64,000 bases of DNA from a virus. The position numbers were made by a program, and so were the translations under genes. The notes under the pieces are model-generated. The model did no database searches. It saw nothing but the letters and a program-made list of their open reading frames with translations, and was not told the DNA's origin. The stretch is taken from positions 1 to 64,000 of the IMG/VR virus record IMGVR_UViG_3300034418_006037; one strand, given 5' to 3'. This document shows, one piece after another, positions 5,239 through 36,896 of the stretch. Numbering within the stretch: position 1 is the first letter of the stretch; each line of letters begins with the position of its first letter.

Positions 5239-5253
5239 AAAATTTAGAGTGTG

Positions 5254-5327
5254 TGCGCCAGGCAGGATTCGAACCTGCAACCAATCGATTATCCAATCGA
5301 GAACTCTACCAGTTGAGATACTGGCGC
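5254..5327 (-). tRNA. tRNA with 8-nt anticodon loop (Ile/Ser-like, expanded)
   Basis: Reading leftward: acceptor GCGCCAG/CTGGCGC pairs 7/7, D-arm CTC-AACTGGTA-GAG, T-arm GCAGG-TTCGAAT-CCTGC, and discriminator A with no encoded CCA. With canonical spacing, the anticodon stem TCGA/TCGA closes an 8-nt loop TTGGATAA (5289-5296), one base more than normal, and the gene is 74 nt with a standard D-loop. A C-T mismatch sits at the base of that stem. The extra base makes the anticodon ambiguous: GGA by position, GAT if offset, or a GGAT quadruplet. Automated callers may label it Ile, Ser or undetermined. Confidence 0.85.
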
Positions 5328-5333
5328 ATTAAA

Positions 5334-5409
5334 GATCCAATACCCAACACGTTTAAAGGCTGGCTATGGGCGGTGCTACCTACGACCGAGATATTCATCT
5401 CATTGGATC
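5334..5409 (-). ncRNA. candidate tRNA-sized cloverleaf RNA between two tRNAs
   Basis: The 104-bp gap between the two tRNAs contains an 8-bp inverted repeat (GATCCAAT at 5334-5341, ATTGGATC at 5402-5409) that closes exactly 76 nt. Inside are a 5-bp hairpin (GAGAT/ATCTC around 5389-5402), a short GGT/ACC helix and a CCCA/TGGG pairing, giving a cloverleaf-like layout. It lacks a TTC-type T-loop and a D-loop GG, so it is not a normal tRNA. It could be a processed spacer RNA or a degenerated tRNA. Structure inferred by eye. Confidence 0.35.
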
Positions 5410-5431
5410 CCTTTTATGTTATTTTATTTAG

Positions 5432-5504
5432 TGCGCCCGGTAGGACTTGAACCTACGACCTGCCGATTATGAGTCGGATGCTCTAACCACTGAGCTACGA
5501 GCGC
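5432..5504 (-). tRNA. tRNA with CAT anticodon (Met or Ile2)
   Basis: The acceptor GCGCTCG/CGGGCGC pairs with one T-G wobble. The D-arm is GCTC-AGTGGTTA-GAGC, the anticodon loop CTCATAA (CAT), and the T-arm GTAGG-TTCAAGT-CCTAC. Length is 73 nt including the discriminator; CCA is not encoded. CAT can be elongator Met or, if its C34 is modified to lysidine, Ile decoding AUA; the sequence alone does not decide. It shares with its neighbour tRNA a mismatch at the first anticodon-stem pair. Confidence 0.93.
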
Positions 5505-5508
5505 ATAG

Positions 5509-5534
5509 AAAAGGCCACCCACGTTTGGATGGCC
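5509..5534 (-). terminator. intrinsic terminator-like hairpin
   Basis: Leftward strand: GGCCATCC, a 6-nt loop, GGGTGGCC, then TTTT. The 8-bp GC-rich stem (5513-5520 with 5527-5534) sits directly before the Met/Ile2 tRNA 5' end and after the carbohydrate-binding-like gene. It could end that gene's transcript or mark a processing boundary before the tRNA. Confidence 0.6.
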
Positions 5535-5577
5535 CTTTCACCTTAACCAGATTGCGACGTTTAAGAAGGCGTCACCC

Positions 5578-6072
5578 TTATCCCATATAGTATACTTTTA
5601 CAGAAGCAATGTAACCAGTGAATGCATTCACAGCTTGATCATTTTCAGGATCTTTGACATAAAAAGCTAAGCCATAAGTACTTGACGTAGTAAATGAGAC
5701 TGATATTGTAGACCATTGATCTGCTGTAGGAGTACCTGATTGAAAAGCAAGGCTTCCAATACTTAATTTTGTCCCAGTCCCATCTGTAGGAACATATATC
5801 TCTGCTTCAGCCGTGTATGTTTCTCCTTCAAAGGCTATAGAAGGAGAACGAAGCAAAACATCGTAGAAGCCTGCTACTGAAGTAAACTTAAGAACGTTGT
5901 TTTTGCCTTCGTACGTTACTCCTGCTTCTGTAGTCCATGTACCATTTACTTGGAAAGACCATCCATCTGCATCTTCACTGAAATCAGATTGATACACGTA
6001 CTGTCTAGTCAACTGAGGACCAGCTGATGTAATGACAGGTGAAGATGAAGTAGATAAACCTAGCTTAGGCAT
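5578..6072 (-). CDS. carbohydrate-binding-module-like beta-sandwich protein
   Basis: Encodes 164 aa. After a Ser/Pro-rich N-terminus, residues ~28-163 show the alternating beta pattern of CBM4/9-like jelly rolls: 'WSFQVNGTW', then 'TYTAEAEIYVP', 'WSTISVSFTTSS' and a final 'ASVKVYYMG'. This fold binds glycans and is common in Bacteroidota surface proteins and phage fibre tips. It is odd here: a structural-type protein embedded in the leftward replication and tRNA arm, far from the other virion genes. There is no signal peptide. It may be a virion decoration expressed early, or a moron-type gene. Confidence 0.55.
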   Translation of the reverse strand: MPKLGLSTSSSPVITSAGPQLTRQYVYQSDFSEDADGWSFQVNGTWTTEAGVTYEGKNNVLKFTSVAGFYDVLLRSPSIAFEGETYTAEAEIYVPTDGTGTKLSIGSLAFQSGTPTADQWSTISVSFTTSSTYGLAFYVKDPENDQAVNAFTGYIASVKVYYMG

Positions 6073-6248
6073 TACTCCTTAGGAGTCTTGATACGATCTG
6101 AAAAGACCATATTAATAAGTGAATCGATATAACCGAACACTTGGTTGTCTTTCTCGGTCGGAGTGAGATTAACAACCACTTTAATCAATGCCATGAGCGC
6201 AATAATGAGCTCGGCAAGGTTATTCATGATAAATGCTGAAATGTCCAT
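6072..6248 (-). CDS. small hydrophobic protein with one membrane-like helix
   Basis: Encodes 58 aa. Residues 8-27 (MNNLAELIIALMALIKVVVN) form an amphipathic to hydrophobic helix, followed by a polar tail ending 'SDRIKTPKE'. The ATG at 6248 is chosen because longer reading begins inside tRNA-Arg, and a TAnnTTTG promoter lies just upstream. Its end shares one base with the next start. Similar small helix proteins occur as holin-like or Bacteroidota phage accessory products; no function is assigned. Confidence 0.5.
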   Translation of the reverse strand: MDISAFIMNNLAELIIALMALIKVVVNLTPTEKDNQVFGYIDSLINMVFSDRIKTPKE

Positions 6249-6266
6249 AACAAATTTGTTTAGGTA

Positions 6267-6274
6267 CAAATATA
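6267..6274 (-). promoter_or_regulatory. Bacteroidota-type -7 promoter box (TATATTTG)
   Basis: On the leftward strand TATATTTG matches the Bacteroidota -7 consensus TAnnTTTG and lies 18 bp before the ATG at 6248. It sits within an inverted repeat GTACAAA...TTTGTAC directly after the 3' end of tRNA-Arg. It probably drives the 58-aa gene and the carbohydrate-binding-like gene. Confidence 0.5.
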
Positions 6275-6287
6275 TACAAACATTTTG

Positions 6288-6361
6288 TACTCCCGGCGGG
6301 ATTCGAACCCACAACCTACAGCTTAGAAGGCTGTTGCACTATCCGGTTGTGCTACGGGAGC
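6288..6361 (-). tRNA. tRNA-Arg (TCT)
   Basis: The acceptor GCTCCCG/CGGGAGT has a terminal G-T wobble. The D-arm is GCAC-AACCGGATA-GTGC, the anticodon arm ACAGC-CTTCTAA-GCTGT (anticodon TCT, reading AGA), and the T-arm GTGGG-TTCGAAT-CCCGC with one T-G pair. The discriminator is A and CCA is not encoded. AGA is a frequent arginine codon in the phage genes, so the tRNA fits codon supplementation. Confidence 0.95.
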
Positions 6362-12019: not shown

Positions 12020-12148
12020 ATGAAAACCACAAGCACTTTTACTCCTAAAGACAAAGTCAATCGACCTGGAATCCATGCTAAGACTAAGACGTCTAAAAAC
12101 AAAAAGTCTAAGCTGTACAAGAAAGCGTACAGGGGTCAAGGCAGGTAG
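12020..12148 (+). CDS. 42-aa basic protein (KYKKxYRGQGR type)
   Basis: Begins MKTTSTFTPKDKVNRPGIHA, has a lysine-rich middle (KTKTSKNKKSK) and ends LYKKAYRGQGR. Short basic proteins with this 'NRPG.H.KTK...YRGQGR' signature are recurrent in Bacteroidota phages, as far as I recall. The start is chosen because the upstream part of the frame overlaps the divergent region. First gene of the rightward arm. A nucleic-acid-binding role is inferred. Confidence 0.6.
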   Translation: MKTTSTFTPKDKVNRPGIHAKTKTSKNKKSKLYKKAYRGQGR

Positions 12149-12168: not shown

Positions 12169-12477
12169 ATGAAACTTGATGACGACACAAACTTTGGTAT
12201 TAATATTAAATGGCTAATTCAAATTGTTGGGGGAGTCGGGGGAGCTGTGTGGATATACTTCACAATAATGCAAGCTATCTCTAGCCTTGAGATAGAAACC
12301 CTGCGGCACAATCAAGAGATTGAATTGAATTCTGAGTTCAGAGTCAAGTGGCCAAGAGGAGAGATGGGCAGCCTCCCAGACGATGCTGAGCAGAACCTCA
12401 GGTTAAATCACCTAGAAAGAGATGTAGAACATCTACAAATTTTAGTTGATGAACTACGTCAGAAGAATTGCGATTGA
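12169..12477 (+). CDS. membrane protein with coiled-coil tail (holin/spanin-like candidate)
   Basis: Encodes 102 aa. Residues ~14-35 form one transmembrane helix (WLIQIVGGVGGAVWIYFTIM). The soluble C-terminal half ends in a heptad coiled coil (LNHLERDVEHLQILVDEL). Its place just before the amidase endolysin suggests a lysis accessory such as a pinholin or inner-membrane spanin, or an infection-stage membrane protein. No diagnostic motif. Confidence 0.55.
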   Translation: MKLDDDTNFGINIKWLIQIVGGVGGAVWIYFTIMQAISSLEIETLRHNQEIELNSEFRVKWPRGEMGSLPDDAEQNLRLNHLERDVEHLQILVDELRQKNCD

Positions 12478-12478
12478 C

Positions 12479-12486
12479 TATATTTG
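12479..12486 (+). promoter_or_regulatory. TATATTTG -7 promoter box
   Basis: Exact TAnnTTTG match overlapping the end of the membrane-protein gene. Transcription would begin around 12490-12494, at the 5' edge of the structured RNA. No clear TTTG element at the -33 distance. Confidence 0.5.
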
Positions 12487-12489
12487 CAT

Positions 12490-12728
12490 CTAGAAACCTC
12501 AAAGGAGACCGGCCCTGAGGTAACCAGGAAGGGCCTAGACATCGGGTTTTAGTAGGGTACTACCATAGGTATCTGAAAGTCGTCCCCGGTAGTTTCGAAA
12601 AGTGCGATGGTATAAAACTCGGGTGGGAACAAGGCTATAGGCTGAAAGAAATGCCCCCACGTAGGCTAAACACGGCGAGCGGAAATCCATCGTTAGACAC
12701 GAAAACTGAGGGGGAAAATTGTATAGTT
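12490..12728 (+). ncRNA. structured leader or ncRNA before the endolysin
   Basis: About 240 nt without a coding start of good quality. Interleaved stems CCTCA/TGAGG (12497-12501, 12516-12520) and GGCCC/GGGCC (12511-12515, 12531-12535) form a pseudoknot. GTTTTA/TAAAAC (12546-12551, 12613-12618) stacks on TACCAT/ATGGTA (12561-12566, 12607-12612). CGATGG/CCATCG (12605-12610, 12687-12692) and GTGGG/CCCAC versus CCCCC/GGGGG (12654-12658, 12710-12714) give competing pairings. A promoter lies at its 5' edge and the amidase ATG at its 3' edge. May be a riboswitch-like leader, a ribozyme or a free ncRNA; no known class recognised. Confidence 0.6.
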
Positions 12729-13160
12729 ATGAGAGAAATTAACCGCATTATCATTCATTGCTCAGCTACCCCGGAGGGTAGACATGTAACTGCTGCTACT
12801 ATTCGTGATTGGCATATGAGAAAAGGCTGGTCAGATATCGGGTATCATTATGTTATTGATATTGAGGGATGTATAGAAGCTGGGAGACCGATAGACAAAA
12901 TAGGGGCCCATACTAAAGGTCACAACAAAGACTCTATCGGGATATGTTACATTGGGGGAGTAGCCAAAGAAAAGAATGAGAAAGGTCAGTGGGTAGCTAA
13001 AGACACTATGACTGATCAGCAAGAGCATGCTATGCGTGAGCTCATCTACTCTCTGCGTATGGTGGCAGACAAGCAACTCTCAATACACGGACACAACGAA
13101 TTCGCAAACAAGGCTTGCCCCTCCTTCAAAGTGTCTGAAAAATTCAAAGACATACTATAA
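12729..13160 (+). CDS. N-acetylmuramoyl-L-alanine amidase endolysin
   Basis: Encodes 143 aa, one Amidase_2/PGRP domain of T7-lysozyme type. Probable zinc ligands are H10 (IIIHCSATPEG), H122 (GHNEF) and C130 (KACPSF); Y41 (YHYVI) and K128 match the catalytic tyrosine and lysine. It cleaves the lactyl-amide bond of peptidoglycan during lysis. The start MREINRI at 12729 is chosen because an upstream in-frame ATG would add 26 residues encoded by the structured RNA. There is no signal peptide, so a holin is needed. Confidence 0.93.
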   Translation: MREINRIIIHCSATPEGRHVTAATIRDWHMRKGWSDIGYHYVIDIEGCIEAGRPIDKIGAHTKGHNKDSIGICYIGGVAKEKNEKGQWVAKDTMTDQQEHAMRELIYSLRMVADKQLSIHGHNEFANKACPSFKVSEKFKDIL

Positions 13161-13170
13161 GTATTTTCTT

Positions 13171-13178
13171 TATATTTG
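13171..13178 (+). promoter_or_regulatory. TATATTTG -7 promoter box before groES-like gene
   Basis: Exact Bacteroidota -7 consensus, 17 bp upstream of the ATG at 13195, in the short gap after the amidase gene. It implies a ~10-nt leader. Confidence 0.65.
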
Positions 13179-36465: not shown

Positions 36466-36896
36466 GCGACAAGAAGAAACTACGCGATACCAAGGTTGGA
36501 GAGTGGCTAAAAGAAAAGGCCCCATCTGTCCTCGAAGTGGTCGGAGATGTACTCCCGGACCGCGGCGTATTGGGCGTAGTTAAAAATCTTGTAGATAAAG
36601 ACCCAACGCTCGATAGTGAAAGCTTTCAAGCAGTTATGGACGCAGAAATTAAAGCTCAAGAGAATGTCACACGACGATGGGAAGCGGACGCGAAATCAGA
36701 CGTTAAGCTTGCTAAGCTTATACGCCCTATTATGCTTGTTCTGCTATGTGTTTTCTTTATGGTGATGATGATTTGGGAAGGTATTGATCCCAACTTCAAA
36801 CCACCTAGCAGCTATATCAGCTTACTAGAGATACTAATGCTCACTGTATTCGGAGCATACTTTGCAGGCCGCACCGTAGAAAAAGTAAAGAAATGA
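36462..36896 (+). CDS. holin-like membrane protein
   Basis: Encodes 144 aa. A cytoplasmic amphipathic region (residues 1-85), then two transmembrane helices at ~88-106 (LIRPIMLVLLCVFFMVMMIW) and 119-136 (LLEILMLTVFGAYFAGRTVE). This arrangement, with 'RPI' before TM1 and 'AYFAGR' after TM2, is typical of class II-like holins in Bacteroidota phages. It would release the amidase encoded at 12729. It overlaps the next gene by ATGA. Confidence 0.75.
   Translation: MSDKKKLRDTKVGEWLKEKAPSVLEVVGDVLPDRGVLGVVKNLVDKDPTLDSESFQAVMDAEIKAQENVTRRWEADAKSDVKLAKLIRPIMLVLLCVFFMVMMIWEGIDPNFKPPSSYISLLEILMLTVFGAYFAGRTVEKVKK

Follow-up and report, generated by a model that had tools for sequence, protein, structure and literature searches.

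The DNA directly upstream of the endolysin gene of this phage carries a structured non-coding RNA of about 230 nt that would represent a new RNA family, as it matches no Rfam entry, although structured phage RNAs of the GOLLD/ROOL type already exist as a broad kind. The RNA is retained where the gene beside it has been replaced or lies elsewhere, and it is thus probably an independent gene rather than a switch for that one gene. The reading that best accommodates the comparative sequence data, to which we assign a probability of roughly 0.6, is that a crAss-like clade carries a stand-alone gene for a structured non-coding RNA that has its own sigma-A promoter and two pseudoknot-locked domains and would act in trans.

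The window, which is the whole stretch of DNA that was analysed, comprises bases 1–64,000 of an 89,217-base (89.2 kb) virus record. Its TerL is 43% identical to that of the gut crAss-like phage cr52_1 (Suoliviridae) and is more distant from those of other Crassvirales, and thus the source is a crAss-like phage. The RNA locus is flanked by a 102-residue gene (12169–12477) and by the Amidase_2 endolysin gene. An earlier note on this DNA had placed a non-coding stretch just before the amidase ATG (12729), which is confirmed for 12491 to about 12724, the RNA ending 4 nt 5′ of this codon; its 5′ end was set from the promoter, and its 3′ end (about 12724) is the limit of conservation only. A tiny basic protein ending in KKAYRGQGR (12020–12148), with no Pfam match, is kept near the RNA in many lineages. 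The principal features of the locus are as follows.

12479–12486, + strand: TATATTTG, a Bacteroidota sigma-A −7 box (TAnnTTYG), with a predicted transcription start at about 12491
12491–12724, + strand: structured non-coding RNA, about 230 nt, with 55 distinct homologues (covariance model matches E <= 2e-29) and no open sense frame in any
12729–13160, + strand: Amidase_2 endolysin gene (PF01510, E 1e-12; phrog_822), a neighbour and not part of the RNA, directly 3′ of it in 33 of 55 homologues

Homologues were gathered from IMG/VR with DNA patterns derived from the amidase and the RNA, and divergent members were then recovered with covariance models. The 55 distinct sequences, which are counted one by one and do not represent independent events, align across the entire ~230-nt element. 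Five viral pattern matches (L084/L117, L115, L124, L133, L146) were dropped on inspection as lying within coding sequence, three pattern matches in the genome collection were not upheld by the covariance model, and a nucleotide search of cultured phages returned no similar DNA. Members found with covariance models occur in phages with TerL 76–78% identical, and one sits 13.5 kb 5′ of the gene for the terminase. A single RNA copy is present in every one of the 14 matching records, and contigs without a match are mostly short or end near the locus. Seven genomes of crAss-like or related phages, from the gut, from insects or from culture, were scanned almost in full with the broadest model and had no match at E <= 10. 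From these data, the family therefore appears to belong to one crAss-like branch. The absence from gut phages, together with the kind of samples, suggests that this branch is marine.

The region does not encode a conserved protein. Such a protein, raised by the earlier note as the counter-case, was looked for and is absent, with all three sense frames carrying stops in each of the 55 homologues. Additionally, in all 32 comparisons with the amidase gene next to it, the RNA shows the higher conservation (median 87% vs 71%).

The supported fold consists of ten helices and one long-range pseudoknot, arranged in two domains.

12493–12497 with 12592–12596, + strand: H1, closing domain 1 (a multi-helix junction); 99.6% paired, 4/5 pairs change on both sides
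12498–12500 with 12505–12507, + strand: H2 hairpin; 100% paired, 3/3 covary
12511–12515 with 12531–12535, + strand: H3; 100% paired, 3/5 covary
12519–12520 with 12524–12525, + strand: inner pairs of H3, weaker
12542–12546 with 12585–12589, + strand: H4; 100% paired, one pair covaries, one has a one-sided change, three are invariant
12556–12561 with 12568–12573, + strand: H5, hairpin within H4; 93.8% paired, 4/5 modelled pairs covary
12604–12610 with 12687–12693, + strand: H6, base of domain 2; 97.9% paired, 6/7 covary
12617–12621 with 12676–12680, + strand: H7; 97.5% paired, 5/5 covary
12623–12627 with 12656–12660, + strand: H8; 100% paired, 3/5 covary (GUGGG/CCCAC, GUUCG/CGAAC, GUCUG/CAGAC)
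12633–12635 with 12653–12655, + strand: H9; 94.5% paired, 1/3 covaries
12579–12581 with 12696–12698, + strand: pseudoknot, GUY with RAC, bridging domain 1 and the 3′ side of domain 2; the strongest non-nested covariation
12699–12724, + strand: 3′ tail including the G run 12710–12714, of which 12710–12713 are identical in 55/55

The RNA and this fold are real on comparative sequence evidence, the proof being comparative and not energetic. In the 55-sequence alignment, which was fitted to the model and is biased toward it, 97.9% of cells are paired, 34 of 48 pairs show changes on both sides (5–13 when the partners are slid), and the cells with both-side changes number 312, against 10–34 in the slid controls. 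The effect is already clear on the first MAFFT alignment, made before fitting, where both-side changes occur in 20 of 46 proposed pairs versus 2–7 in slid controls. Mutual information placed 16 pairs of the structure among the top 20, with one pair outside the nested fold ranked fourth. The pair 12581–12696 is C-G in 28 and U-A in 27 of the 55 sequences, and 12580–12697 is U-A in 53 and flipped to A-U in two divergent ones; this covariation and this flip together establish the 3-bp long-range pseudoknot. An RNAalifold alternative to H1, pairing AGAC (12538–12541) with GUUU, was rejected because H1 covaries in 4/5 of its pairs. A partner for the G run was likewise discarded, as every C run already sits in supported helices and covariation is impossible. 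Thermodynamic folding alone was set aside as evidence, since the minimum-energy fold of the window RNA equals that of dinucleotide shuffles (z −0.04; 91/200 shuffles fold as well).

These results bear on the earlier note, whose fold is mostly wrong though the RNA it pointed to is real. Its statement that pairing greatly exceeds that of an ordinary leader is not borne out by the shuffles. The alignment bears out the stems GGCCC/GGGCC, CGATGG/CCATCG and GTGGG/CCCAC, which are conserved with both-side changes. A pseudoknot does exist, but it is a different one from that drawn in the note, which occurs in a few close relatives only. CCTCA/TGAGG is perfect in the window but fully formed in only 6 of the 55 homologues, and ATGGTA/TACCAT, also perfect in the window, is formed in 2. 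Helices described as coaxial are likewise confined to a few close relatives (the GTTTTA/TAAAAC helix to 3/55), and CCCCC/GGGGG is nearly invariant among the homologues, without covariation.

The promoter box that had been reported beside the non-coding stretch is present. In 44 of 55 homologues, at most 8 nt separate the end of a TAnnTTYG motif from the RNA, against a rate of 0.7% in shuffled upstream DNA. The Flavobacterium box extends from −12 to −5 (PMC9723704), and the predicted +1 thus falls at, or a few bases from, the first H1 base. Among the 11 homologues that lack the box, L041 and L143 have near-matches, and nine constitute the divergent L209-type lineage (L209, L247, L252, L260, L281, L299, L307, L311, L315). 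In this lineage, the RNA starts either at the stop codon of the preceding ORF or just a few bases farther on, which would imply 5′ processing or read-through. A clear terminator was not found after the RNA: transcription in the amidase type should continue into the gene, and the A+T-rich hairpin in the groES type is weak (z about −1). A groES promoter box lies downstream of the RNA, at 13171–13178 in the window and also in groES-type loci.

The genes that follow the RNA are variable. Directly 3′ of it, the 55 homologues have Amidase_2 (33), a small putative membrane protein that is holin-like by inspection and has no Pfam match (8), a structural-looking protein (4) or a DUF5675 protein (3), which may be an alternative endolysin; seven stand alone. 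The window itself encodes, at 36474–36893, a homologue (61% identity) of the holin-like protein whose gene in the L209 lineage comes directly after the RNA. Endolysin type is itself swapped in the region, between Amidase_2, DUF5675 and a protein that is M15-peptidase-like by inspection, with the RNA kept (L085, L097, L242, window 12729–13160). In the stand-alone loci (L097, L102, L104, L116, L134, L148, L243), the RNA has a DUF5675 gene upstream on the opposite strand and the groES promoter box downstream, with no ORF before the latter. The amidase is present in L246, L244 and L311 at a distance of 1.6–11 kb from the RNA, and on the TerL tree the context must have changed at least 7 times, with the RNA persisting. 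The varied contexts, distant amidases and repeated changes show that the amidase is not a constant partner of the RNA, which is independent of its neighbour gene.

Comparison with known classes upholds the suggestion of a novel non-coding RNA class, along with the strong covariation and the closed sense frames. Rfam 15, which the earlier note had proposed to search besides collecting homologous leaders, returned only three tRNAs for the window at the gathering score. At E <= 10, there was one chance snoRNA match, below threshold, and the divergent RNA loci gave none. Neither the GOLLD/ROOL models nor those of known ribozyme families matched in the window or the divergent loci, nor did the phi29 pRNA model in the window. 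No tmRNA, sought as a tRNA-like domain with a tag frame (ARAGORN, Rfam), was found at the RNA. The gut phage cr52_1 has an annotated tmRNA gene (L217 1–151; NC_055888.1 81171–81551). The literature searched held no report of a structured RNA gene in crAss-like phages or Crassvirales.

In kind, the RNA resembles GOLLD and ROOL in being phage-borne, extensively structured, pseudoknotted and non-coding. It differs in its length, about 230 nt versus >800 nt for many GOLLD, and in lying outside a tRNA island, as 6 kb separate it from the tRNAs (5253–6361), which are on the opposite strand. One of these, at 5253–5327, is a tRNA of undetermined anticodon beside two ordinary phage tRNAs. A phi29-type pRNA is likewise a small RNA encoded by a phage close to its packaging genes, TerL here being 2–14 kb downstream, but this TerL is of the crAss and not the phi29 ATPase type, and the fold differs.

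Of the competing explanations, the strongest is a cis-acting leader, a riboswitch or timing element that would control how the next late or lysis gene, whichever that is, is translated, and we consider it rather unlikely. As in structured mRNA leaders, the RNA lies directly 5′ of a start codon in most members, ending 3–45 nt before the gene (Amidase_2 33/55, DUF5675 3, membrane protein 8), and in the window the invariant G run is about 14 nt 5′ of the amidase ATG. Yet a riboswitch should show a constant theme among its co-transcribed genes, whereas contexts here differ, four homologues precede structural genes, and in seven the groES promoter comes next, with no intervening ORF. Two of the competing helices proposed for switching (ATGGTA/TACCAT, GTTTTA/TAAAAC) are not conserved, and both domains are, rather than just an aptamer and a platform. 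A switch timing lysis through the amidase start, as the earlier note had envisaged, is thus not supported as a general function, for the RNA persists away from the amidase, before other genes and alone.

Processive antitermination, in which an RNA-polymerase-modifying leader like HK022 put would head the late operon, is improbable. The RNA does lie, like put, upstream of a long phage operon on the same strand, preceding groES–TerL by 0.1 to about 13 kb in the compared loci with those genes on the contig. By comparison, put RNAs are much shorter, and a promoter box for groES lies downstream of the RNA, so that this operon should be readable without it. Equally improbable is a self-cleaving or otherwise catalytic RNA that would free itself from, or process, the late mRNA. 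Long invariant single-stranded stretches and the pseudoknot would suit such an activity, as would the L209 lineage, where the RNA sits between ORFs without a promoter and some 5′ processing would be needed. Against it, no Rfam ribozyme matches, the fold is not among the known nested double pseudoknots, and a cleavage site cannot be pointed to. The last rival, fortuitous pairing in an otherwise ordinary leader, would suit the shuffle-like folding energy and is already refuted by the controlled covariation and by matches in phages with little shared helix sequence.

The stand-alone RNA gene draws instead on the covariation, the adjacent promoter in 44/55 homologues, the greater conservation than the amidase in 32/32 comparisons, the context changes and the seven loci without an ORF. 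It has to accommodate the lack of a clear terminator, the L209 lineage without a box, and a proven or possible lysis gene within about 45 nt downstream in 44/55 homologues, which also fits a leader. In most lineages, the RNA would be transcribed from its own host-type sigma-A promoter, with the first transcribed bases at or a few bases from the first helix, fold into its two domains locked by the long-range pseudoknot, and act in trans, as a separate RNA. Its most likely form would be a late RNA or RNA-protein particle, similar in style to GOLLD/ROOL, that works on machinery of the host or the phage (the ribosome, RNA polymerase or packaging). The level of GOLLD rises during lysis (PMC12286853). 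Where no more than about 15 nt separate the RNA from the amidase gene, its transcript probably doubles as amidase mRNA leader, and in amidase-type genomes a leader role may thus stand alongside the trans role. More tentatively, the family could be a new functional class of clade-wide, trans-acting viral RNA with a late role unlike that of any known phage RNA, such as host-machine takeover or virion assembly.

Together, these comparisons caution that an RNA directly 5′ of a phage endolysin gene is not necessarily an endolysin regulator. For the Crassvirales, which infect Bacteroidota and are very widespread, they would add a new RNA family that is absent from Rfam, bears a clear genetic signature and has a secondary structure, including a long-range pseudoknot, that is well supported.
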